From contig NZ_BMPB01000015.1 in the NCBI RefSeq assembly GCF_014647375.1, forward strand, positions 124,001-188,000: DNA of 64,000 nt, given 5' to 3'. Positions 7,079 through 47,565 of this stretch are shown one piece after another. Source of the DNA: Parabacteroides faecis. GTDB taxonomy: Bacteria; Bacteroidota; Bacteroidia; Bacteroidales; Tannerellaceae. The number at the start of each line of letters is the position of its first letter. The first letter of the stretch is position 1. The position numbers were made by a program, and so were the translations under genes. Below the pieces are notes generated by a model. The model searched no databases. It had not been told where the DNA came from and saw only the letters and a list, made by a program, of their open reading frames with translations.

Positions 7079-7181
7079 GTGATAGTATGATGGTTGAAAA
7101 TAGTACTATCATAACAACTGTCATAGGTCTTGTCCTTTAAATATCAAAACATTTTGGCAATTTGTGATAGTATGATAGTTG
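7079..7181. repeat. Direct repeat GTGATAGTATGATRGTTG, two copies
   Basis: An 18-base sequence occurs at 7079-7096 and again at 7164-7181 with one difference (G/A at position 14). The bases between them include a partly complementary stretch (around 7104-7120). The repeat sits in the same convergent gap as the 23-base-period repeats and ends just before the aroE stop. No gene is visible in 6865-7193. Confidence 0.6.
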
Positions 7182-16672: not shown

Positions 16673-16844
16673 TTACAGGTTCATTTGCCGTTGGTTTTAA
16701 CCAACGGTCTACAGATTGTATCCCTTTTTGGGCTTTAGCCGCATTTCTCTTAAATAGCGAGACTGTATAAAATGGGACTAAAGTCCAATGAGATAGATTA
16801 TTTACCAATCCGTCAGCTGAAGCTGACGGCAAATGAACCTGTAA
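16673..16844. mobile_element. MITE/REP-like element with 18-bp terminal inverted repeats and four hairpins
   Basis: TTACAGGTTCATTTGCCG (16673-16690) is repeated exactly in inverse at 16827-16844. Between or overlapping the ends are four short hairpins: 16688-16707 (CCGTTGGTT stem), 16731-16740 (GGCTTTAGCC), 16775-16786 (GGACT/AGTCC) and 16810-16829 (CCGTCAGC-TGAA-GCTGACGG). There is no coding capacity. The design resembles REP arrays moved by RAYT (Y1 HUH) transposases, but none is in the window. Together with flanking sequence it fills the 383-base gap between the beta-galactosidase and the PepSY-like gene. Confidence 0.65.
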
Positions 16845-35943: not shown

Positions 35944-37215
35944 TTATGATTCAGTATCCTCTTCCTCTGTCAACGGTCCCAATTCCGGAATGATCGCACG
36001 AGCTTCGCGGTCGCTCAATGTATCGACATCTTTCAGCTTTCGCTGGATAGCGCGGGTACGGGTACCGAGAACTTCTTCTATCTGGCCGCTGGCCGTTTGC
36101 AGGTTCTTTTGTGCTTTCTCCAGCATGCCGCTCACCTTTTCGAACTCCTTTTTTACGGCACCGAGAATGGTCCATACTTCTCCCGAATGTTTCTGGATAG
36201 CCAGTGTGCGGAAACCCATTTGCAAACTGTTCAGGATGGCGGCAAGCGTAGTAGGCCCCGTTACAACCACTTTGTAAGTACGCTGTAACTCTTCCATTAA
36301 AGCAGAACGGCGTACCACTTCGGCATAAATACCTTCGAACGGCAGGAACATGATGCCGAAATCGGTCGTCGCAGGCGGAGCCAGGTATTTGTCGGAAATA
36401 TCTTTAGCCATCTTCTTGATCGTCGTTTCCAGTAACTTCCCGGCAGCCTCGATCGCCTGCGGATCGGCATTGTCGTAGGCATCCAGCAACTGTTCGTAGA
36501 TATCTTTCGGGAATTTGGCATCTATCGGAAGATAAACGTATTCGCGTATATCATCCCGTCCCGGCAACTTGACGGCAAATTCGACGACAGCATCCGAACC
36601 TTTACGGGTATGAACATTGGCCTCATATTGTTCCGGAGCCAGTATCTGTTCCAGCAACATACTCAGTTGTATCTCTCCGATATTCCCCCGTGTCTTGACA
36701 TTGCTCAATACCCGTTTCAGGCCGCCTACATCCTGTGCCAGTGTCTGCATTTCCCCGAGTCCTTTCTGTACACTCTCCAGTTGTTCGGTGACCAGGCGGA
36801 ACGACTGACCGATCCGGTCGTTCAATGTTTTTTGTAATTTCTCGTCTACCGTAACACGGATCTCCTCCAAACGTTTTTCGGTGTTTGCTACCAACATGCG
36901 CTGCTGTTCGTCCAGGTTGGCGAACTTTTCCCGTTGCAGGTTGTTAAAGGAAGCGATCCCCCGGTCGAAAGCTTCCCGAAATTCGTTCATGGAACGGGTC
37001 AGCTCTTCCCTGTTATCGCGGGCAACGATGCGGCCTTCTTCGCGGTTCAGGCGGAAGTCCTCCCGGAAGTTTTTTTCAATGCGTTCGAAGGAACGCTGCA
37101 TTTCATCCAGCAGGCGTTTCAATTCGTTTTGTGTATCGGTATTGTCCTTTTTAGGACGGAATAAGATCTGTAAAACAATGATGATAAGTAATGTACAAAT
37201 AATCAACCAATCCAT
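35944..37215 (-). CDS. rmuC: DNA recombination protein RmuC
   Basis: A 423-residue RmuC-family protein, a predicted nuclease that limits recombination at inverted repeats in E. coli. An N-terminal membrane helix (LIICTLLIIIVLQILF) is followed by a long coiled coil (about 25-165) and the conserved domain with KTRGNIGEIQLSMLLEQIL, LPIDAKFPKDIYEQLLDAYD, PPATTDFGIMFLPFEGIYAEV and VVTGPTTLAAILNSLQMGFRTLAIQ. ATG at 37215 is preferred over the TTG three codons earlier. A minus-strand -7 TATCTTTG (37233-37240) lies just upstream. The many inverted repeats in this window would be natural substrates for its pathway, although that is only a remark. Confidence 0.92.
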   Translation of the reverse strand: MDWLIICTLLIIIVLQILFRPKKDNTDTQNELKRLLDEMQRSFERIEKNFREDFRLNREEGRIVARDNREELTRSMNEFREAFDRGIASFNNLQREKFANLDEQQRMLVANTEKRLEEIRVTVDEKLQKTLNDRIGQSFRLVTEQLESVQKGLGEMQTLAQDVGGLKRVLSNVKTRGNIGEIQLSMLLEQILAPEQYEANVHTRKGSDAVVEFAVKLPGRDDIREYVYLPIDAKFPKDIYEQLLDAYDNADPQAIEAAGKLLETTIKKMAKDISDKYLAPPATTDFGIMFLPFEGIYAEVVRRSALMEELQRTYKVVVTGPTTLAAILNSLQMGFRTLAIQKHSGEVWTILGAVKKEFEKVSGMLEKAQKNLQTASGQIEEVLGTRTRAIQRKLKDVDTLSDREARAIIPELGPLTEEEDTES

Positions 37216-37303
37216 GTCATTCAATTTTGCGTCAAAGATAGAAAAACTGTTCTCTGAACAAGTAATTAAAAAGAGTTAAAAGGAAAAACATTATTCTTTA
37301 ACT

Positions 37304-37336
37304 TTTGTTTTAGTCATACAAAGCCGCTTATATTTG
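37304..37336 (+). promoter_or_regulatory. Promoter of the thiol peroxidase gene
   Basis: TTTG (37304-37307), a 21-base spacer and TATATTTG (37329-37336) fit the Bacteroidetes housekeeping promoter. The ATG is 38 bases downstream. Confidence 0.7.
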
Positions 37337-37374
37337 TGAGCCGCTTTTAACGTAAAACATAAAATACTACAAAG

Positions 37375-37878
37375 ATGGCAAAAATAACATTTAAAGGTAA
37401 TGAAGTAAATACCAACGGTACATTACCGGCAGTTGGAGCAGAGGCTCCGGATTTCAAAGGAGTAAAAAGTGATCTATCGGAATTATCTCTCAAAGAATTG
37501 AAAGGTAAGAATGTTGTAATTAACGTATTTCCCAGTCTGGACACTGCTGTGTGCGCCGCTTCGGTGAGACGTTTCAACAAAGAAGCCGCTTCTTTACCCA
37601 ACACTGTGGTACTTGCCGTATCAAAAGATTTACCTTTTGCACATGGACGCTTCTGTACGACGGAAGGCATCGATAAAGTGATCACACTTTCTGCATTCCG
37701 GTGTTCATGTTTTGAAGATAAGTACGGGATGCTGATGGTTGACGGTCCGCTGAAAGGTCTATTGGCCCGTGGCGTGATAGTTGTCAACGAAGCAGGTAAA
37801 GTGGTTTATGAGGAACTTGTTTCCGAAATTACCAACGAACCGAATTACGAAGCCGCAATCGCTTCGCTAAAAAACTAA
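37375..37878 (+). CDS. tpx: Thiol peroxidase (2-Cys atypical peroxiredoxin)
   Basis: A 167-residue Tpx that reduces hydroperoxides with electrons from thioredoxin, acting in the cytoplasm or periplasm (no signal seen here). The peroxidatic cysteine is C60 in SLDTAVCAASVRRFN with T57 three residues before it, and the resolving cysteine is C94 in GRFCTTEG; the active-site arginine would lie in the LLARGVIVV segment. The prolines and VITLSAF also fit Tpx. It has its own promoter and terminator, divergent from rmuC. Confidence 0.95.
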   Translation: MAKITFKGNEVNTNGTLPAVGAEAPDFKGVKSDLSELSLKELKGKNVVINVFPSLDTAVCAASVRRFNKEAASLPNTVVLAVSKDLPFAHGRFCTTEGIDKVITLSAFRCSCFEDKYGMLMVDGPLKGLLARGVIVVNEAGKVVYEELVSEITNEPNYEAAIASLKN

Positions 37879-37925
37879 TTAAGTAGATTATTGTTTTTCA
37901 TTGGTTAAAGTTAAGGGTTAGTGTA

Positions 37926-37965
37926 GAAGGCTGTCGGATGTGAATCCCGCAGCCTTCGTTTTTTT
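37926..37965 (+). terminator. Intrinsic terminator of tpx
   Basis: GAAGGCTG (37926-37933) pairs with CAGCCTTC (37950-37957) and is followed by G and seven Ts. The remaining bases up to 38169 hold no recognisable gene. Confidence 0.85.
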
Positions 37966-38169
37966 AGAGTTTGGTATCTCGGAATTTATTCGTATCATTG
38001 CATCAAATTAAATCATCTTATGTGTTCAATAACTTCTAAATTTGGTTTCGTTTACTTTGTGTAACGATAGATAAGAGCCATCTTATCTTTTGAACCTACG
38101 TTTCGATTCCCTGTCATGGCTATGGGGAACCCTCTTTTCTACATATTTTATTTTAATTAAAAAGAAGTT

Positions 38170-39387
38170 ATGAATAACTGGAAAAAAGTATTCGCTATTA
38201 TATGGATCGGTCAGTTCTTTTCTATCCTGACCAGTTCGATCGTTAATTTCGCTATCATCTTATGGCTTAGTTTTGAAACTAAATCGGCTGAAGTATTGGC
38301 TTTTGCTGCCATAGCCGCCATGCTTCCGCAGTCGGTACTCGGGTTGTTTGCAGGTATATTTGTCGACCGCTGGAAGAGGAAACGGGTCATGATCATGGCG
38401 GATAGCTTCATTGCTTTCTGTACGCTGATCCTTGCCGTCCTGTTCTATCTGGATGTAGCGAAGCTCGGACATGTGTATATCCTACTGGCTTTGCGTTCGG
38501 TAGGATCGGCATTTCATATGCCGGCGATGCAGGCTTCCGTACCTTTACTGGCTCCTAAGTCGGAACTGATCCGTATAGCCGGGATCAATCAGATCATTCA
38601 GTCGGCCTGTAATATTGCTGGACCTGCTCTGGCAGCACTTTTTATTTCCTTTATGGAGATGACGAATATATTGCTGTTGGATGTGATCGGGGCGGCATTG
38701 GCTTGTACTTCGCTTCTGTTTGTAAAGATTCCCGATCCGGAGAATGAAGAGAGAAGTCAAAAGGTACAACTATTGAAGGAAGCCAAAGAAGCCTATACGG
38801 ATGTGCGTGCGCAGAATGGATTGTCGTGGTTGTTTGTCCTGTCTATCCTGGCTACTTTCTTTATTATGCCGGTCGGTGTGTTGTTCCCTTTGATGACACT
38901 GAATCACTATTCGGGGAATGCTTATCAGATCAGCTTGGTCGAGGCAGCTTGGGGGATAGGTGCTTTGCTGGGAGGAGCCTTTCTGGGGATCAAGAAGTTT
39001 AAACTGAACGAGATCTCATTGATAAACTGGATGTATCTTCTGCTCGGATTTACATTCTTGTTGTCTGGTGTCCTGCCTGTTTCAGGATATCCTTTGTTTG
39101 TCGGGTTGACGGCCATTGGCGGCATATCCGGTTCTCTTTATATGGCTTCCTTCACTACCGTACTGCAAACCCGTATCAATCCGGTAGTGATGGGGCGGGT
39201 ATTCTCGTTTTATATGAGTGTCAGCCTTCTTCCTTCGATGATAGGATTATTGAGTACTGGTTTTCTGGCTGATAATATCGGAATAGGGAATACTTTTATA
39301 ATTGGCGGTGTACTGGTCGGGATGATCGGGGTAATTTCATTTTTCGTACCGTCGATAAGAAAGTTGCGAGATAGCTTTATTCCATAA
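38170..39387 (+). CDS. MFS transporter (macrolide-efflux/EntS-like)
   Basis: A 405-residue, 12-helix major facilitator of the EntS/MefA-like group (DHA3-type), predicted exporter of drugs or siderophores. Typical features are NWKKVFAIIWIGQFFSILTSSIVNFAIILWL at the start, LFAGIFVDRWKRKRVMIMAD (motif A) and the central loop rich in E and K (NEERSQKVQLLKEAKEAY). Substrate unknown. It is a single gene ahead of the invertible segment and susC. Confidence 0.88.
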   Translation: MNNWKKVFAIIWIGQFFSILTSSIVNFAIILWLSFETKSAEVLAFAAIAAMLPQSVLGLFAGIFVDRWKRKRVMIMADSFIAFCTLILAVLFYLDVAKLGHVYILLALRSVGSAFHMPAMQASVPLLAPKSELIRIAGINQIIQSACNIAGPALAALFISFMEMTNILLLDVIGAALACTSLLFVKIPDPENEERSQKVQLLKEAKEAYTDVRAQNGLSWLFVLSILATFFIMPVGVLFPLMTLNHYSGNAYQISLVEAAWGIGALLGGAFLGIKKFKLNEISLINWMYLLLGFTFLLSGVLPVSGYPLFVGLTAIGGISGSLYMASFTTVLQTRINPVVMGRVFSFYMSVSLLPSMIGLLSTGFLADNIGIGNTFIIGGVLVGMIGVISFFVPSIRKLRDSFIP

Positions 39388-39422
39388 CTTGTCAGAGAAG
39401 AATCAAAAATACTTATTGTATA

Positions 39423-39469
39423 AAATGGCATTTATTGTAGATGGTGAATATCTATAATAAATGCCATTT
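39423..39469. terminator. Hairpin after the MFS gene
   Basis: AAATGGCATTTATT (39423-39436) pairs perfectly with 39456-39469, a 14-base stem with a 19-base loop. No T run follows, so it is only a possible terminator; it ends four bases before the left arm of the putative invertible segment. Confidence 0.55.
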
Positions 39470-39473
39470 ATGA

Positions 39474-39714
39474 CATAGTTCTGATAGAACTAGTGCAAGC
39501 CGTACACCAATAAAGACCAGAAATACAATAAGATAAACAAAAAGGAATTGAAAACTACCGCTACTTAAGATTAACTTATTTTCTTAGATTAATTATTAAC
39601 ATTATCCAGCTTAAATATTGACTATTATTAATTTAATTGTTTCAATAAGCTATTTATAATAAAAAATATACTATATTTGCAGCATAAATATAAAATAGTT
39701 CTATCAGAACTATG
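39474..39714. promoter_or_regulatory. Putative invertible promoter segment bounded by a perfect 19-bp inverted repeat
   Basis: CATAGTTCTGATAGAACTA (39474-39492) recurs exactly inverted at 39696-39714, enclosing 203 non-coding bases. Each arm is itself a near dyad (AGTTCT-GAT-AGAACT), the layout of a recombinase site. The segment carries TATATTTG (39672-39679), a good Bacteroidetes -7 element pointing at susC, with no clear -33 match at the usual spacing. No -7 element reads the other way. As drawn, the switch would be ON. No recombinase gene is present in the window. Confidence 0.65.
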
Positions 39715-39853
39715 TTTGGTGGTTTAAATCCTTAGAGACGTGAGAATCTGAATGCCATAGAAAATATGTAATCTATAAGTAGTGGTGAGTTTCAGCTCCT
39801 TGGATCTAATTCATATAGTTACTAGTATTATTATTAAACAAAAAGCAATTGTT

Positions 39854-42800
39854 ATGTTGAAAATCGCAAGACCAGTCAGCCTTATGCTATTGTCTGTTGC
39901 ATTATGCTCCGGGGGAGCTTATGCATCCGGTCATACAGCAATTCCCAAAGTTGACATTTCTCAGCAACAAAAAAGTTTGAAAGGGACAGTGAGTGATGAT
40001 TTCGGCCCTGTTGCCGGAGCTTCTGTTGTCGTAAAAGGTACGACGAACGGAACAGTTACCGATATGGACGGTAATTTTGTTCTGGACGTCAGAAACGGAG
40101 ATGTGATCCAGATTTCTTTCATCGGTTATCTGACTCAGGAGATTAAGTATACGGGGCAATCTTCTCTGAAAGTCAGTTTGGTCGAGGATACACAAAAACT
40201 GGATGAAGTTGTAGTGGTGGGTTACGGAACACAGCAGAAAGCCAACCTTTCGGGAGCCGTGGCATCTGTGGCCAGTGACGAGTTGACCAATCGCCCCATC
40301 TCTAATGTATCATCCGGATTGCAGGGATTGATGCCGGGTGTAACGATCACAGCCGGTGAGGGTCGTCCGGGACAGGATGGTAGTAATATCCGTATCCGTG
40401 GTGTCGGAACCCTGAACAACGCTTCCCCTTATATCCTGATCGATGGTATCGAAAGCGGTTCGATGGACAGTGTCGACCCTAATGATATCGAAAGTATCTC
40501 TGTCCTGAAAGATGCATCCTCCGCAGCCATCTATGGTTCGAAAGCATCTAACGGTGTAATCCTGATAACCACCAAACGAGGTAAATCGGGTGCTCCCCGC
40601 ATCTCTTACAACGGCTATGTCGGTGTATCGAGTCCCACTGCCGTTATCGACCGTGTAAGTTCGGCCGAATATGCTATGCTGTATAACCGGATCGACGATA
40701 ACAACGGGCAACCGCACCGGTACAGCGATGAAGATATCCGTCTGTTCCAGGATGGTTCCGACCCATACGGACATCCGAACACCGACTGGAATGATGCCGC
40801 TTACCGTACGGGAGTATTGCATAAACACAATGTGAATGTGAGCGGTGGTAATGAGAACACGAAGTATATGGCCTCTGTCGGCTATCTGGGACAGACCGGT
40901 ATTCTTCCCAATTCGGAACGTAAGCAGTTTAACGGCCGTACGAACCTGGATATGAATATCACCAAGAGACTGACCGTCCGTTTGAATATGGCTTATATCA
41001 AGAATGACTATAAAGACCCGAACTCCAACTACGGCGGCGGTTGGTCCGACCAGATCATTCGCCAGTTGAATATTCTGAGTCCGATGATCCCTATTTATAA
41101 TGAAGACGGAACTTACGGTTCTACGAATGACGGAAACCCTATTGCCTGGCTGAACTCGGGGCAGACGGTCGATAAATACAACCAGAACTTCACTGGTTCA
41201 CTGGCTGTCGACTATCAGATCATAGATGGCTTGAAAGCAACCTTGTCCGGCTCGTATGTAAATGATGACCAACATTTCAAGACATTTGTTATGAAACTGG
41301 CCGAAGATCCGGCGCAGGCAAACCGTCCGAACAGTCTCGAAGAACGTTTCACGAACTGGACACGTTATAACTTCGATGCTTTGTTGAACTACGACAAGAC
41401 ATTCGGTAAACACGGACTGAAAGTAATGTTGGGATACCATACCGAACAATACGATGTACGTTATAATGATATGTATCGCGAAAACTTCCCGAACAATGAA
41501 CTGGACGATATGAATGCCGGTGCTACCGCAACGCAAACCAACTCCGGTTTTACCCGCGAACTAGCCATGCTTTCCTATTTCGGTCGTGTGAACTACGACT
41601 ATGCCGGAAAGTATTTGTTGGAAGCCAATTTCCGTTCGGATGCTTCTTCCCGCTTCGCTCCCGGACACCGTTGGGGCTATTTCCCTTCTTTCTCTGCCGC
41701 ATGGCGTATCAGCGAAGAGAGTTTTATGGAAAATACGAGAGACTGGTTGAACAGCCTGAAGATCCGCGGATCGTGGGGTATGCTCGGTAACCAGGATGCA
41801 TTGAGTGACGGAACACCTACCGGCGGTGACTTCTATCCCTGGCTGAATACCTATAACCTGGGGGCAAATTATCCGATGGGCGGTTCGCTGACAACCGGTT
41901 ATTATCAGGGAAGTTATAAGATCGAAGACCTTTCATGGGAAAAGTCGACCACCTGGGGGCTGGGACTGGATGCTATAATCAATGATAAGATCAGCTTCAC
42001 TTTCGATTATTACGATCGTAAGACGACGGATATTATCATGGAAGTACCTGTGCCGACCGAATTTGCATTGGGAGCTTACAAAGACAATGTCGGTGCTATG
42101 CGTAACCGCGGTGTTGAAATCCAGTTGGGTTACAACAATACCTGGGGCGACTGGAAACTGGGCGTTGTCGGTAACTTTGCCTACAATAAGAACAAGATTG
42201 AAAACCTGGGCGGTGTAAACCGTATGGCAGACGGCGACTTCATGCGCCAGGTCGGTTCGCCGATCAATTCATGGTATGTGTACAGAACCGACGGTTTCTT
42301 CCAGTCGGATGACGAAGCACAGGCCTGGATGGATAAATATGCCGGACAGGACGGCTATCCGTTCGGTCTTAAGTTCAAAGGCGGCGACCTGAAGTATGTG
42401 GATACGAACGGCGACGGTAAGATCACGGCTGAAGACCGCGAACTATATAAGACAAAAGACCCGGTGATGACTTTCGGTCTGAACCTGAACGCCGGTTATA
42501 AGAACTTCGACCTTACCCTGAACTTTACAGGTGCTGCGAATGTCGGTTTTGCTTATACAAAAGAAGCTTTCGGTGAATTCTCAGGGAGTGCCGGCCACCC
42601 GTCGACAGCCTGGTTGGACTCATGGACACCCGAAAATAAGAACGCAAGTATGCCTCGCGTTGCGGAAGCCCGTATGTCACCGAGTGAAGCATCCGTCGTT
42701 TTCTCCGATTTCTGGGTAATGAACACAAGCTATCTGCGTCTGAAAACGGCCCAGTTGGGATATACTTTCCCGAAAGGACTCCTGGAAAAAGCAGGTATCC

Positions 42801-42946
42801 AGAACCTGAGAGTGTATTATTCGGCAGAAAACCTGTTAACATTCGACTCTATGCCGTTGAATGTAGACCCGGAAACTGTAAGTACGCGTTTGTCGAGCTA
42901 TCCTTTATCGACAACCCATTCATTCGGTGTTAATGTTACCTTCTAA
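39854..42946 (+). CDS. SusC/RagA-family TonB-dependent outer-membrane transporter
   Basis: A 1030-residue outer-membrane TonB-dependent transporter of the SusC family that imports an oligosaccharide or other large nutrient together with the SusD lipoprotein. A signal peptide ending about AYASG is followed by a carboxypeptidase-D-like N-terminal domain (about 42-125, GTVSDDFGPVAGASVVVKGT), the SusC junction EVVVVGYGTQQKANLSGAV, the plug (about 140-250) and the barrel to the terminal phenylalanine (NVTF). ATG at 39854 is chosen over the open frame start at 39782 because it begins the signal peptide. The SusD gene follows after 34 bases. No sensor, anti-sigma factor or glycanase gene is attached, so the substrate cannot be inferred. 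Confidence 0.95.
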   Translation: MLKIARPVSLMLLSVALCSGGAYASGHTAIPKVDISQQQKSLKGTVSDDFGPVAGASVVVKGTTNGTVTDMDGNFVLDVRNGDVIQISFIGYLTQEIKYTGQSSLKVSLVEDTQKLDEVVVVGYGTQQKANLSGAVASVASDELTNRPISNVSSGLQGLMPGVTITAGEGRPGQDGSNIRIRGVGTLNNASPYILIDGIESGSMDSVDPNDIESISVLKDASSAAIYGSKASNGVILITTKRGKSGAPRISYNGYVGVSSPTAVIDRVSSAEYAMLYNRIDDNNGQPHRYSDEDIRLFQDGSDPYGHPNTDWNDAAYRTGVLHKHNVNVSGGNENTKYMASVGYLGQTGILPNSERKQFNGRTNLDMNITKRLTVRLNMAYIKNDYKDPNSNYGGGWSDQIIRQLNILSPMIPIYNEDGTYGSTNDGNPIAWLNSGQTVDKYNQNFTGSLAVDYQIIDGLKATLSGSYVNDDQHFKTFVMKLAEDPAQANRPNSLEERFTNWTRYNFDALLNYDKTFGKHGLKVMLGYHTEQYDVRYNDMYRENFPNNELDDMNAGATATQTNSGFTRELAMLSYFGRVNYDYAGKYLLEANFRSDASSRFAPGHRWGYFPSFSAAWRISEESFMENTRDWLNSLKIRGSWGMLGNQDALSDGTPTGGDFYPWLNTYNLGANYPMGGSLTTGYYQGSYKIEDLSWEKSTTWGLGLDAIINDKISFTFDYYDRKTTDIIMEVPVPTEFALGAYKDNVGAMRNRGVEIQLGYNNTWGDWKLGVVGNFAYNKNKIENLGGVNRMADGDFMRQVGSPINSWYVYRTDGFFQSDDEAQAWMDKYAGQDGYPFGLKFKGGDLKYVDTNGDGKITAEDRELYKTKDPVMTFGLNLNAGYKNFDLTLNFTGAANVGFAYTKEAFGEFSGSAGHPSTAWLDSWTPENKNASMPRVAEARMSPSEASVVFSDFWVMNTSYLRLKTAQLGYTFPKGLLEKAGIQNLRVYYSAENLLTFDSMPLNVDPETVSTRLSSYPLSTTHSFGVNVTF

Positions 42947-42980
42947 ATGATTAATGATTATCTAATATAAGTTGAATTTT

Positions 42981-44588
42981 ATGAAACGATTATCTATATA
43001 TTTATTGGCCGGAGTAGCTCTTTTGTCTGCCTCCTGCTCTGACTTTTTAGATACAGCTCCACATGATGCCCTGTCGCCTTCCACTACCTGGAAGACAGAG
43101 GCCGATGCCGAAAGCTTTGTGGTAGGATGTTATAACGGTTTGTGGGATCCGGGCTCGATCCTGTATCTGGATTGCGGTTCCGATCTGGGGTATAACAACT
43201 TCTCCTGGGAAGGATGGCGTCCGTGGGGAGACGGCTCTTTGTCAAGCTCCAATACAGGTGCTTCGTTCTATAGTTTTACCATTATCCGCCGTTGTAATAC
43301 GGTACTCGATAATATCGATAACGTAGAGTTCAAATCGGAAGAAAAGAAAAAAGACCTGATCGCACAAGCCAAGGCGATCCGTGCTTACAAATACTTCCTG
43401 ATGAACTGGTGGTATGGCGGTGTGCCTATCATCGACTCTTACCTGACGGCCGAGGAGGCCCAGGTGCCCCGTAATACGGAAGAAGAAGTGCGTAAACAGA
43501 TCGCTCAGGACCTGGATGATGCCCTGGCCGGTATCAATACGGTTCCTTCCGAACGCGGACGTATTGCCAAAGGTGGCGTTTTAGCTATTAAAATGCGTGA
43601 AGCCTTGTATTATGGCGAATGGCAGAAAGCCAAAGAGGCTGCCCAGGCTATCATCGACCTGAAACAGTATGAGCTCGATCCTGATTTCTCCAACCTGTTC
43701 AAACTGACCGGTGTCGACTCGAAAGAAATTATCATTGCCGACCAACGTATTCCCAATACCTTCGGTCTGGGTACGATAGGCCAGATGTATAACAACAAGG
43801 ATGCCGGCTGGTCGTCTATCGTTCCGACTCAGAACCTGGTGGATATGTATGAAATGACGGACGGTAAAACGAAGGAAGAGTCGAGCCTGTACGATGCGGC
43901 TCATCCGTTCGCCAACCGCGATCCCCGTATGGAAATGACCATCCTGTTCCCGGGACAGGACTGGAGAGGTGAGGTATTGAATACACTGGACGAACTGACA
44001 CCGGAAGGCGGGAAGAACATCAACTATCCGACCTATACGGACAATGCTTCCAAGACGGCTCTTACCTGGGCGAAATACCTGGACCCGTTTGAACAATATC
44101 CCAATGTATGGAATACCGGAGCTTGTGTGATCGTATTCCGTTATGCCGAGGTATTGCTTTCTTATGCTGAAGCCGAAAACGAGTTGAACGGTCCTTCGGC
44201 TCAGGTGTACGACTATCTGGATCAGATCCGTACCCGTGCAGGTATGCCGGTGGTAGACAGGGCGAAGTATGCATCTAAAGACCAATTGCGTGAACTGATC
44301 CGCCGCGAACGGGCTGTCGAGTTTGCCGGTGAGGGTTTGCGTCGTGCTGATATTCTGCGTTGGAAAGATGCCAATAATAAAATGCTGGCTGAGACAGTAT
44401 TGAACGGTACATTGAACCGTATTTCCGGTACTATCGACTACAATGAAACGGATTCTTACAAACGTGCTGTCGTAAAAGGCTCGGAGTTCATCGAAAACCG
44501 CCAGTTCTCCGCAAAGAACCGTTACTTGCCGATCCCCCAGAGTAGCATAGATAAGAATCCGAAACTGGAACAGAATCCGGGCTATTGA
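42981..44588 (+). CDS. SusD/RagB-family nutrient-binding lipoprotein
   Basis: A 535-residue cell-surface lipoprotein that closes over its SusC partner and captures ligand. The lipoprotein signal ends LLSASC with the lipid cysteine at 19, followed by SDFLDTAP, a standard SusD opening. The body shows SusD/RagB features: an N-terminal SusD-like domain with tetratricopeptide-type helices (NVEFKSEEKKKDLIAQAKAIRAYKYFLMNWWYGGVPI) and the C-terminal RagB part with LSYAEAENEL and RRERAVEFAGEGLRRADILRWK, ending YLPIPQSSIDKNPKLEQNPGY. A TTG nine bases upstream is an alternative start; ATG is preferred. Cotranscribed with susC. Confidence 0.95.
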   Translation: MKRLSIYLLAGVALLSASCSDFLDTAPHDALSPSTTWKTEADAESFVVGCYNGLWDPGSILYLDCGSDLGYNNFSWEGWRPWGDGSLSSSNTGASFYSFTIIRRCNTVLDNIDNVEFKSEEKKKDLIAQAKAIRAYKYFLMNWWYGGVPIIDSYLTAEEAQVPRNTEEEVRKQIAQDLDDALAGINTVPSERGRIAKGGVLAIKMREALYYGEWQKAKEAAQAIIDLKQYELDPDFSNLFKLTGVDSKEIIIADQRIPNTFGLGTIGQMYNNKDAGWSSIVPTQNLVDMYEMTDGKTKEESSLYDAAHPFANRDPRMEMTILFPGQDWRGEVLNTLDELTPEGGKNINYPTYTDNASKTALTWAKYLDPFEQYPNVWNTGACVIVFRYAEVLLSYAEAENELNGPSAQVYDYLDQIRTRAGMPVVDRAKYASKDQLRELIRRERAVEFAGEGLRRADILRWKDANNKMLAETVLNGTLNRISGTIDYNETDSYKRAVVKGSEFIENRQFSAKNRYLPIPQSSIDKNPKLEQNPGY

Positions 44589-44640
44589 TCTGTGTGATTC
44601 TGCGTGCCATTTAATACTTGGAACGCCTTTATATATAGCG

Positions 44641-44698
44641 GAGGAAGAGTTTTAACCGCTGTCATTTCTTTGACAGTATGGCTGAAAAGCTCTTCCTC
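44641..44698 (+). terminator. Long hairpin after the susD gene
   Basis: GAGGAAGAG (44641-44649) pairs with CTCTTCCTC (44690-44698), with an inner CTGTCA/TGACAG stem and additional TTTT/AAAA pairing. It lacks a good T run but lies 52 bases after the stop and probably ends or protects the susCD transcript. Confidence 0.6.
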
Positions 44699-44780
44699 AC
44701 TGTTTATTAGAAAGAATACTACCGAAAACTATTGCTTTTCTCCCGATATTTTATATCTTTAGTCCTGACTTAGTAAAGCC

Positions 44781-44855
44781 ATCCTCTACACCTCGGCAGA
44801 CCACGGTGTACACTTTATCCGATTATCCTATACACCATAATCGACTATCCTGTAC
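44781..44855. repeat. Three copies of ATCCTNTACA upstream of the HU-like gene
   Basis: ATCCTCTACA (44781-44790), ATCCTATACA (44824-44833) and ATCCTGTACA (44846-44855), spaced 43 and 22 bases apart, lie 95-170 bases before the HU-like gene. They may be operator sites. Nothing else is recognisable in the 44699-44949 gap. Confidence 0.5.
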
Positions 44856-44949
44856 AGGCTGATATTACCGGATTGTAACCTTTGATATAGAAGGTGGTAA
44901 GCTATGATATAACTAGTAGTAATATTAAATCTAAAAGAAAGGGAACCGC

Positions 44950-45336
44950 ATGGCTGTAAAGTACAAACTCACGAAAATCAATGACAATATTACCAATAAA
45001 GAGCAGGTGAAGTACTCAGTAACCACCGTAAGCAACGGTAATGTTAATCTCGACGCCCTGGCAGAACAGATGGCCGATGCCAGCACCTTCAACTATGGAG
45101 AAGTGAAAGGAATGATCGAAAACCTGACCCGTATGATTGCATTTCATCTGAAAGATGGCTATACCGTTACAATAGACGGTTTGGGTACGTTCAGTATCAC
45201 CGCCCAACCGAACCGGGAAGTGGAAGTTCCTTCTAAAATACGTGCCGAATCGATCAAATTGAAAAGTATCAGCTTTAAACCCAGTCCGAAACTGAAAGAA
45301 AAGCTGAGTGATATTGAATTCACGAAGCTGAAATAA
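44950..45336 (+). CDS. HU-family DNA-binding protein (Bacteroidales long type)
   Basis: A 128-residue HU-like protein of the Bacteroidales type that begins MAVKYKLTKINDNITNKEQ before the HU fold. The helices NLDALAEQMADASTFNYGEVKGMIENLTRMIAFHL are followed by the beta-arm YTVTIDGLGTFSITAQP and a tail rich in K and S. It binds DNA without strict sequence preference, bending it. Such proteins are often found next to VirE/VapE-family genes in Bacteroidales, and the next gene is one. Confidence 0.88.
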   Translation: MAVKYKLTKINDNITNKEQVKYSVTTVSNGNVNLDALAEQMADASTFNYGEVKGMIENLTRMIAFHLKDGYTVTIDGLGTFSITAQPNREVEVPSKIRAESIKLKSISFKPSPKLKEKLSDIEFTKLK

Positions 45337-45366
45337 TCGTTTATACATAAAGTTTTGGGAATTTAT

Positions 45367-45464
45367 CTGTCATCTGCCACTATTGTTGGTAGATGGCTGA
45401 AAGATATTTTATTAGGTGTGGCAGATGATGAGGTGCTATCTGCAACAGCATCTGTTATCTGTCA
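45367..45464. repeat. GCAGATGA-type repeats upstream of the VapE-like gene
   Basis: CTGTCATCTGCCAC (45367-45380, inverse of GTGGCAGATGACAG), GTGGCAGATGATG (45418-45430) and an inverse TATCTGCAACAGCATCTG stretch (45438-45455) carry the same core as repeats after the gene (47577-47722). They fill most of the 156-base gap between the HU-like and VapE-like genes. Confidence 0.6.
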
Positions 45465-45492
45465 CACACCTCAAATAAAATAAAGGGTATTT

Positions 45493-47565
45493 ATGAAAGT
45501 AACACAAATGAAAGGTGATGGAAAGTCGCTGAAAAATATAGAGTTGGATGCTGTAATGGCAACGATGGCCAATGAAGAGTATAGCAGAGAAATAGCATTG
45601 TTGAGAGAGTCACTGAAAAGCATAATGCCTGGTCGCAAAAATGTCCATGCCGATAAGATCCCTGTTTTACTGTTTGCTGCTAAGTTCAGGAAAAAAGAGA
45701 ATGAACTGTATTTCAGCTCGTACAATGGAGTCGTTTTGGTACAGGTCAATAATCTGGCAGATCGCCGGGAAGTGGAAAAGATAAAGAAATTAGCTTCTGA
45801 AGCTCCGCAGACGCTGGCGGCTTTTACCGGATCAAGTGGGAAAAGTGTGAAAATACTGGTTCTGTTTACCCTGCCGGATGGTTCTTTGCCGCAAACGAAA
45901 GAGTTGGCAGAATTGTTTCATGCAGCAGCCTGCCGGCGTACGGTGAATTATTACCGTGGTCAGTTACAATGTGATATTCCGTTTGAAAATCCGTCTTTGG
46001 AGCAAGGGTGCAGGTTCTCGTATGATCCGGAACTTTATTATAATCCTTCGGCTATCCCATTGACATTGGAGCAACCGATGCAGCTGTCTTCTGAAATTAC
46101 CTACAGGGAGGCGGTTGAGAAAAATGAAGACCCATTACTGCGATTAATGCCGGGTTATGAGCGTAGCCATATTATTTCCCGTTTGTATAATGCCTGTGTA
46201 CAGGATGCGTTGGACAAGACCGGAGGGCTGGATGAAGGGAGAGAGGTCAGGCCTTTTCTGATCCGGTTGGCTGAAAACTGTTTCCATTCGGGTATCCCGG
46301 AAGAAGATGCTGTTCGTTGGACGATGATATACCAGGATCTGACCTTTTTTGAAGAGGAAATAAGGGAAACGATACATACGGCTTATCAATTATCCAGGAA
46401 TTTCGGGAAGAAGTTTATTGTATCCCAGGAACAATTGATGGCTGTTAAAACGGCTGAGTTTATGAAGCGGCGTTATGAATTCCGGCGTAATATGCTGACC
46501 GGGGAGGTCGAGTTTCGTGCCCGCGGATCTTATTATATTCAGTTTGCTCCGATAACAGATACCGTATTGAATAGTATCGGGTTGAATGCTCAGGCGGAGG
46601 GGTTGGCATTGTGGGACAGGGATGTGAAACGGTATGTTTATTCGGATCGCGCACCGGTCTTTCACCCATTGGATGATTTTCTGGATCATTTGCCTGTCTG
46701 GGACGGAAAGGATCATATTCGTGCTTTGGCAGATACATTGCCGACTGCTAATCCGGATTGGCGCGATTTGTTTTATATTTGGTTTCTGAGTATGGTTATG
46801 CATTGGCGCAGGCGCGAACATTTGCATGCGAACAGTTCGTTGCCATTGTTGGTAGGTCCGCAGGGATGCGGCAAGTCTACCTGGTGCCGGAATTTGTTAC
46901 CTCCTTCCCTGCGTCTATATTATACCGATAGCATTGATTTCGGGAACAAGCGAAATGCGGAGTTGATGTTAAGTCGTTTTGCACTGATCAATATCGACGA
47001 GTTCGACTCGGTTAGTTCCGCTTATCAGAGTTTTTTGAAGCATGTCCTTCAAAAGCCGGTAGTCAATGCCCGTCAGCCTTATAAGCGGAGTGTCGATGCG
47101 CTGCATCGTTATGCTTCTTTCATTGCGACCTGCAATAATTACGATTTATTATCCGACCCGACCGGAAGCCGGCGTTTTATTTGTATTGAAATAACAGGTA
47201 CGATCGATCATTCGTCTACGGTAAATTACGAGCAATTGTATGCACAGGCATCAGCCGCTTTAGCTTCCGGAGAGCGTTACTGGTTTACTTCCGAAGAAGA
47301 GTTTTCGACGACAAAGAATAATGAGGCTTTTCAGCAAATGCCTGTCGAAGAACAATTGCTTTTGCAATATTTCCGTCCCGCTTTGCCGGATGAAGATTGT
47401 GAATGTTTTTCTCCGATTGAAATAATCCTTTATCTGCAAAAGATGAGTGGTGTGAAGTTGGGGAATAAACGGTTATCTTATTTCGGTCGCCTGTTACAGA
47501 AAAACAAGTATCCTTCCCGGCGTACCCGACGCGGTACTTGCTATTCTGTCGTAAAAATAAAGTAA
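45493..47565 (+). CDS. VirE N-terminal/VapE-type P-loop helicase-like protein
   Basis: A 690-residue protein of the BT4734/BF3469 type: an N-terminal VirE-like domain (about 20-185, related to primase-like folds) and a C-terminal VapE-type helicase domain with Walker A GPQGCGKST at residues 455-463 and a Walker B-like LINIDEFDS. SFIATCNNYDLLSDPTGSRRF resembles the sensor and arginine region of primase-helicases of mobile elements. These genes are abundant in Bacteroidales and probably come from integrated elements, although no integrase, relaxase or att site is seen here. HU-like neighbour upstream, MATE gene downstream. The biochemical role is not established. Confidence 0.85.
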   Translation: MKVTQMKGDGKSLKNIELDAVMATMANEEYSREIALLRESLKSIMPGRKNVHADKIPVLLFAAKFRKKENELYFSSYNGVVLVQVNNLADRREVEKIKKLASEAPQTLAAFTGSSGKSVKILVLFTLPDGSLPQTKELAELFHAAACRRTVNYYRGQLQCDIPFENPSLEQGCRFSYDPELYYNPSAIPLTLEQPMQLSSEITYREAVEKNEDPLLRLMPGYERSHIISRLYNACVQDALDKTGGLDEGREVRPFLIRLAENCFHSGIPEEDAVRWTMIYQDLTFFEEEIRETIHTAYQLSRNFGKKFIVSQEQLMAVKTAEFMKRRYEFRRNMLTGEVEFRARGSYYIQFAPITDTVLNSIGLNAQAEGLALWDRDVKRYVYSDRAPVFHPLDDFLDHLPVWDGKDHIRALADTLPTANPDWRDLFYIWFLSMVMHWRRREHLHANSSLPLLVGPQGCGKSTWCRNLLPPSLRLYYTDSIDFGNKRNAELMLSRFALINIDEFDSVSSAYQSFLKHVLQKPVVNARQPYKRSVDALHRYASFIATCNNYDLLSDPTGSRRFICIEITGTIDHSSTVNYEQLYAQASAALASGERYWFTSEEEFSTTKNNEAFQQMPVEEQLLLQYFRPALPDEDCECFSPIEIILYLQKMSGVKLGNKRLSYFGRLLQKNKYPSRRTRRGTCYSVVKIK

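Follow-up and report, generated by a model that had tools for sequence, protein, structure and literature searches.

Results

An inverted repeat upstream of a susC/susD pair

The window (the whole stretch of 64,000 nucleotides that was analyzed) contains a short intergenic region between a gene for a major facilitator superfamily (MFS) transporter and a susC/susD pair. The features of this locus are as follows.

38170..39387, + strand: MFS transporter gene (Pfam PF07690), ending 85 bp before the left arm
39423..39469, no strand assigned: 20-bp hairpin, 95% complementary, between the MFS gene and the putative inverton (inverted-repeat search; − strand fold z −5.70)
39473..39492, + strand: left inverted-repeat arm of 20 nt, 100% complementary, with the 17-nt site TAGTTCTGATAGAACTA at 39476-39492
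39493..39695, + strand: putative invertible segment between the arms, geneless, in the ON orientation in the assembly and flipped in the relatives G038 and G013
39672..39679, + strand: predicted −7 promoter element, TATATTTG, directed toward susC and 16 nt away from the 17-nt site (sequence match to TAnnTTTG)
39696..39715, − strand: right inverted-repeat arm with the same 17-nt site inverted at 39696-39712 (inverted-repeat search)
39716..39853, + strand: 5′ leader of susC, outside the segment, 138/138 identical in G038
39854..42946, + strand: susC, TonB-dependent transporter of 1030 aa (Pfam PF07715, PF13715), the putative controlled gene
42981..44588, + strand: susD, 535 aa (Pfam PF07980, PF14322), next gene after susC on the same strand

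The preliminary description placed a perfect 19-bp inverted repeat at 39474-39714. The repeat is real, but its arms (39473-39492 and 39696-39715) are 20 nt long, one base more at each outer end, with 203 nt between them and a total length of 243 bp. Inside each arm lies the 17-nt dyad TAGTTCT-GAT-AGAACTA (TAGTTCTGATAGAACTA), as had been described, and the segment is indeed without genes in that no ATG-started open reading frame of more than 20 codons was found to end within 39473-39715. No other perfect inverted repeat at 60-3000 bp in the window is as long; in 60 simulated order-2 Markov windows the longest was 17 nt, and 20 nt was reached in none of them. Allowing up to 3 mismatches, the 17-nt site had five strand matches in the window (the two arms on both strands, which account for four, and one place with 3 mismatches at 7101) versus 0.11 expected, and five matches were reached in none of 100 shuffles. 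A chance repeat was ruled out by the Markov windows and the shuffles. A second perfect inverted repeat, of 19 nt (16673-16691 and 16826-16844, spanning 172 bp), is intergenic and carries nested small hairpins. By eye it resembles REP or MITE repeats more than an inverton, and no exact copy was found among the 324 loci examined.

The −7 element was found where it had first been reported, at 39672-39679 on the + strand and pointing at susC, a direction that agrees with the earlier ON call for susC. The locus has inverted repeats around a short segment with an outward-facing promoter element, as an inverton would, the promoter being recognized as a sequence match. In the orientation given, the element would point out of the right arm and through the leader into susC-susD (ON), and the segment promoter is predicted to drive transcription of these genes. 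After inversion it would point at the 3′ end of the MFS gene, with the promoter running against that gene (OFF). The lack of a clear −33 element had been listed as a weakness of the promoter assignment. No such element is present at the window locus, but its absence appears to be a trait of the class rather than a weakness, because TTTG stands 17-23 nt before the −7 element in only 2 of the 23 promoter-bearing inverton ends described below. A scan for the sigma-70 consensus was uninformative at the locus (2 sites versus 4.4 in shuffles). The product of susC has plug and CarboxypepD_reg domains. As a guess, the hairpin at 39423-39469 is possibly an insulator or a terminator; a terminator scan at the hairpin found nothing, and a search of 39380-39900 against Rfam returned three weak matches, all far below gathering scores.

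The segment lies in the opposite orientation in relatives

We compared the genome of the window (G000) with 39 genomes of the genus. In a search with 39380-39990, the segment matched G038 and G013 (P. goldsteinii) on the strand opposite to its flanks. The comparison of orientations described below had four inverted matches at this locus, two of which (L324 and L307) were left out of the count because their flanks were weak and distant. Judged by the direction of the −7 element, the window is ON and both G038 and G013 are OFF. Both orientations therefore occur in nature, between species, and the variation test set out in the preliminary description, which could be run between species of the genus, came out in favor of its invertible-promoter reading.

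In G038, positions 36002-46500 of the window are syntenic at 85-88% identity and 39473-39715 is inverted at 97.5%. With G038 turned to the same gene order, its segment agreed with the window in 131 of 254 aligned columns before flipping and at 237 of 243 positions afterwards, and the −7 element of the flipped segment faces away from susC, as had been predicted for the inverted state. The segment in G013 is flipped at about 75% identity. When the window was compared with G038 in 100-nt bins, identity was 96-100% for 38900-39399, 88% in the 39400 bin, 97-100% for 39716-39899, 93% in the 39900 bin and 75-92% in the remaining bins of the range compared (38300-41599). Given this high identity relative to the bins further out, the flip is probably younger than the shared tract 38900-39900; strong constraint on the tract is the alternative to a recent inversion within it. 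The susC leader is identical in G038 at all 138 positions, and 39716-39842 is 97-100% identical in G013, unlike the first 1.7 kb of susC, which is 75-93% identical to G038 per 100-nt bin. The identity of 39716-39853 would follow from constraint on the leader or from recent sharing of the tract.

The surroundings of the segment in G013 differ from those in the window. A sulfatase gene (L166:11888-13480) lies across the inverton from the leader and reads away from the inverton, and the flipped promoter would be expected to face it. Flipping in G013 would then decide which of two operons is transcribed; at the sulfatase position the window is without a gene. Integrase and topoisomerase genes (L166:4000-11330 and L165), by eye an integrated element, stand between the inverton leader and the former susC of G013. 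The element sits at a position corresponding to about 39838-39842 of the window, and susC is thus on another contig.

Two readings would do without any inversion. Assemblers can pick either orientation at long inverted repeats, so that the opposite orientation in relatives might be an artefact of assembly. We consider this the least credible of the explanations, since arms of 20 nt should be far shorter than reads, G038 is assembled in 8 contigs with the locus inside one of 4.5 Mb, and G013 shows the flip independently. The two dyads might also be operator sites or RNA hairpins: each 17-nt site is a palindrome and would form a predicted 8-bp hairpin in the leader RNA, although shuffles of the whole leader fold just as well (z 0.33). 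Against this second reading, which is very improbable, the flanks in G038 and G013 are fixed while the segment between them is inverted, and the centres of the sites match as inverted copies within pairs and differ between loci (see below). An operator pair or a terminator was ruled out on the flipped orientation in relatives. We conclude, with a probability of roughly 0.9, that 39473-39715 is an inverton, in which a promoter on a 203-nt segment is flipped by a site-specific tyrosine recombinase acting between inverted 17-nt sites. The comparison is between species; within one strain the flip is presumably reversible.

At least 34 pairs of the same site in the genome

The preliminary description had proposed a search for further copies of the site, and these were found in large numbers. 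With up to 1 mismatch, the pattern TAGTTCNNRNNGAACTA had 57 + 53 strand matches genome-wide versus 9 + 13 for the pattern read backwards, and there were 31 exact matches versus 0 for the backwards pattern. We worked with 77 sites, which are the distinct places in 100 listed of the 110 matches with up to 1 mismatch plus two further places; one place with 2 mismatches (C1:672565) was left out. Fifty-five of these sites make 28 opposite pairs at 27 loci, with spans of 158 to 1669 bp. All 28 pairs that lie 60-2500 bp apart among the 77 listed sites are inverted and have matching 5-nt centres; the count of 27 loci used the matching centre as a rule, and no near pair failed it. Of the 22 sites left unpaired, the seven exact ones were searched for a partner with up to 4 mismatches anywhere, and 7/7 have an inverted partner with an identical central 7 nt and 2 or 3 outer mismatches. 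All 31 exact sites of the genome therefore have a partner, and these seven pairs together with the 27 loci make at least 34 inverted site pairs.

The sites follow a simple rule. Positions 3, 4 and 6-16 agree within pairs in 27/27 loci, while positions 1, 2, 5 and 17 do not always agree, and between loci positions 8-10 agree at only 0.27-0.33. Agreement outside the 17 nt was similar for the arms of one locus and for different loci (0.34 versus 0.32 over the outer 12 nt and 0.31 versus 0.34 over the inner 12 nt). Each site has conserved ends (consensus TAGTTC and GAACTA), and the 5 nt at its centre are shared by the two sites of a pair but differ from locus to locus. Centres matched in this way are what a tyrosine recombinase would need for exchange across an overlap that is tested for homology, and the centre may serve that role here. 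Because the ends are conserved and the centre is locus-specific, a single enzyme could serve about 34 loci, with strand exchange occurring mostly between the two sites of one locus. Loci that share the centre TGATA (the window locus, C1:529684 and C16:47597) could recombine with each other.

Putative promoters, targets and orientation across the loci

The TAnnTTTG motif was found up to 45 nt inside one site in 23 of the 27 loci and at both sites in none. It lies 13-18 nt from the site in 20 of these 23, and its presence at 23 of 54 ends compares with a mean of 2.0 and a maximum of 8 in 500 rounds of a first-order Markov simulation. Four of the 27 invertons have no TAnnTTTG near a site. Among genes starting up to 900 bp away on a side, the target is SusC-like at 15 loci, an ECF sigma factor at 7 and neither at 5; these target counts and the ON/OFF counts that follow cover the 27 loci from the listed sites, to which the 7 added pairs are additional. 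Twelve SusC loci have a defined −7 element, and in the assembly the window locus is the only one that is ON, with 11 OFF. Two of the six sigma loci with a defined −7 are ON and four OFF.

Some loci have a different layout. The site pair of L193 (G000:C10:57038-57610) has no nearby −7 element, a FecR-like gene and a SusC gene on one side and a SusC gene on the other; it is perhaps a gene-swapping shufflon. In G015, G012 and G014 (L169, L170 and L171) the homologue of the window susC is divergent to a second susC-like gene, and repeats of the site class spanning 732-1288 bp lie upstream in G015, G012 and G021 (L172 and L173 in the last). This arrangement suggests either-or switches.

We also compared the orientation of the segments elsewhere in the genome. 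Nine other loci (20 comparisons) could be set against G038, G013 or G009, and all had the orientation of G000, the window locus alone differing; many of these comparisons rest on one flank and 60-90 nt of segment, and some stretches of the relatives match two loci of G000, so that their orthology is uncertain. Flipping may hence be rare or biased, and either an OFF-biased switch or slow switching would give such a picture. The constant orientation at these nine loci and the OFF state of 11/12 SusC loci would also fit a segment that flipped during evolution and is now a fossil or almost locked, with no working phase switch in the strain. This is unlikely, as the two 20-nt arms have no mismatch, the tract that surrounds the flip is highly similar, and the genome encodes a full-length tyrosine recombinase with the usual catalytic positions.

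A candidate recombinase

The genome of the window has 23 matches to tyrosine recombinases (22 of them over the cut-off) and four to serine recombinases. The flipping enzyme is probably the 387-aa chromosomal tyrosine recombinase L038 (G000:C3:454683-455843), a proposal based on its sequence and on the distribution of its orthologues. Its gene follows a SusC/SusD-like pair at the end of the contig. The protein has Arm-DNA-bind_5, SAM_5 and Phage_integrase domains, the set of arm-binding tyrosine integrases, and is full length with what we take, from a reading of the motifs, to be the usual R, K, HxxR, H and Y positions.

A full-length orthologue (at least 59% identity) was found in 19 of the 39 genomes of the genus. 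These 19 genomes hold 123 exact sites versus 23 in the 20 others (16 versus 11 for the backwards control), where the others include G010 and G011, whose orthologues are partial (75% at the edge of a contig and 68% over residues 102-383), and G008, which has fragments. At least five exact sites were present in 8/19 genomes with the orthologue versus 1/20 others (P 0.008), and sites per Mb also differed between the two groups (Mann-Whitney P 3e-5); kinship was ignored in both tests. At least one exact site was present in 19/19 versus 6/20 (P 3e-6, kinship again ignored), a comparison that overstates the link between enzyme and site in that single exact sites are near background, the backwards control having 27 in the 39 genomes. 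Outside the genus, where the looser criterion of E at most 1e-60 was used for a homologue, the site was found in 4 of 8 genomes with one versus 1 of 30 without (P 0.004, kinship ignored); in one of the eight, G074, the gene contains a stop and the site is absent. G039, a 3.3-Mb genome from another genus of the family, has 32 exact sites and a shorter homologue only.

In 20 relatives we inspected the neighborhoods of the orthologues (4-17 kb). A site of the class was present in 13 and absent in 7. Repeat pairs of the class lie between divergent susC genes near the orthologue in G002-G005, pairs or single sites lie in or at susC starts in G001, G006, G012, G014, G015, G019 and G038, and single sites occur in G018 and G011, the latter perhaps by chance. 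We found no site adjoining the gene in G000, where the stretch ends with the contig, or in G013 and G009, both of which are site-rich. These last absences, and the near-background level of single exact sites, lower the odds that we give to the candidate.

A substantial but lesser possibility is that the inverton is flipped by another recombinase, such as a mobile-element integrase, XerC/XerD or any of the four serine recombinases. The genome offers many such enzymes, three genomes (G000, G013 and G009) have no site beside the candidate gene, and G022 has 13 exact sites and no orthologue (best match about 31%). On the other side, the C3 recombinase co-occurs with site-rich genomes, and most other recombinases are, judged by eye from neighboring translations, in mobile-element or phage contexts or XerC/XerD-like (L043 and the fragment L054 had no such reading). 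L048, L049 and L050-L053 were set aside because each adjoins an inverted repeat of another motif, and a tyrosine trio on C17 and the hsdS-linked L037 were set aside on gene context by eye. Serine invertases have a 2-bp overlap, and pair-specific centres of at least 5 nt fit a tyrosine recombinase rather than a serine invertase.

NCBIfam was run on 20 of the 23 tyrosine matches (all except L042, L045 and L054), and none of these proteins scored above the cut-off against any invertase model. Below the cut-off, two 'tyrosine-type DNA invertase' models matched some of them (L032-L036) but not the candidate L038. Six tyrosine recombinase genes of G000 (L202, L203, L204, L205, L206 and L228) each adjoin an inverted-repeat pair of another motif, of the ACCTTATTT..AATAAGG type in five and the GTCTCTTGG..AGAGAC type in one. 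They are near likely fimbrial or other surface genes.

Discussion

The SusC/SusD invertons and shufflons of B. fragilis YCH46, the subject of work by Nakayama-Imaohji et al. in 2009, are said to have the site consensus AGTYYYN4GDACT. The two arms in the window, AGTTCT-GATA-GAACT and AGTTCT-ATCA-GAACT, fit this consensus when the site is read from either arm. In its anatomy, and by this consensus, the window inverton resembles the SusC/SusD invertons that are reported to be flipped by Tsr0667 of B. fragilis. In both types the sites are short and inverted, a single site class recurs at many distant loci, and the targets are SusC/SusD, with several susC/susD loci per genome (15/27 SusC-like here). 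Next to the candidate enzyme, G001, G012, G014, G015 and G038 also have related sites (AGTCTTTGCAGAACT), which lie within or at the starts of susC genes. The two differ in that the genus here is Parabacteroides and not Bacteroides, ECF-sigma genes are also targeted, the window locus is a simple promoter flip, and the loci number about 34, versus three SusC/SusD clusters and nine other regions in passages on Tsr0667 (PMC4747536, PMC11852207). Among open-licence papers that mention Tsr0667, neither the consensus string nor BF0667 was found.

Other systems share single traits with the window locus. The Mpi invertons of B. fragilis likewise have a promoter on a short segment between inverted repeats and one master invertase for many loci; Mpi, in the account given in part of PMC4747536, is a serine recombinase that acts at 13 regions including capsule promoters. 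The target at the window locus is SusC/SusD and not a capsule (UpxY) operon, and the pattern of the sites suggests a tyrosine recombinase. In the Tsr19/BF2766 system, as outlined in the same source, a tyrosine recombinase flips a local and a distant promoter with the −7 element TAnnTTTG. That system, unlike the window inverton, controls EPS genes and another gene cluster, and the recombinase genes of G000 with an adjoining repeat pair carry other motifs. Phase-variable regions have been reported in Parabacteroides distasonis, according to a section of PMC10773633. Excerpts of two surveys describe invertons more broadly: one covers 39 genomes including P. distasonis, with SusC/SusD regions prominent (PMC10939037), and the other groups invertons by repeat motif (PMC11892184). 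In open-licence papers we found no account of sites of this class at SusC loci in P. goldsteinii or related bacteria; supplementary tables may list such loci. The kind of mechanism is already known from B. fragilis, and we file the window inverton under that known kind.

Taken further, these observations lead us to a tentative picture, to which we give somewhat less than even odds. A single chromosomal tyrosine recombinase, encoded beside SusC/SusD genes, would run about 34 receptor and ECF-sigma switches in Parabacteroides, with the locus-specific crossover of at least 5 nt serving as the address. Nearly all SusC switches would rest in the OFF state, leaving few receptors per cell. If right, SusC/SusD phase variation of the B. 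fragilis type would exist on a large scale in Parabacteroides close to P. goldsteinii. The analysis yields a site rule (fixed ends and a locus-specific centre), a named candidate invertase and a receptor locus that is ON in the assembly. SusC/SusD receptors import nutrients and may be targets of phages or of the immune system, and a list of the switchable ones would therefore be useful, as it would let the state of a population be read from sequencing reads.
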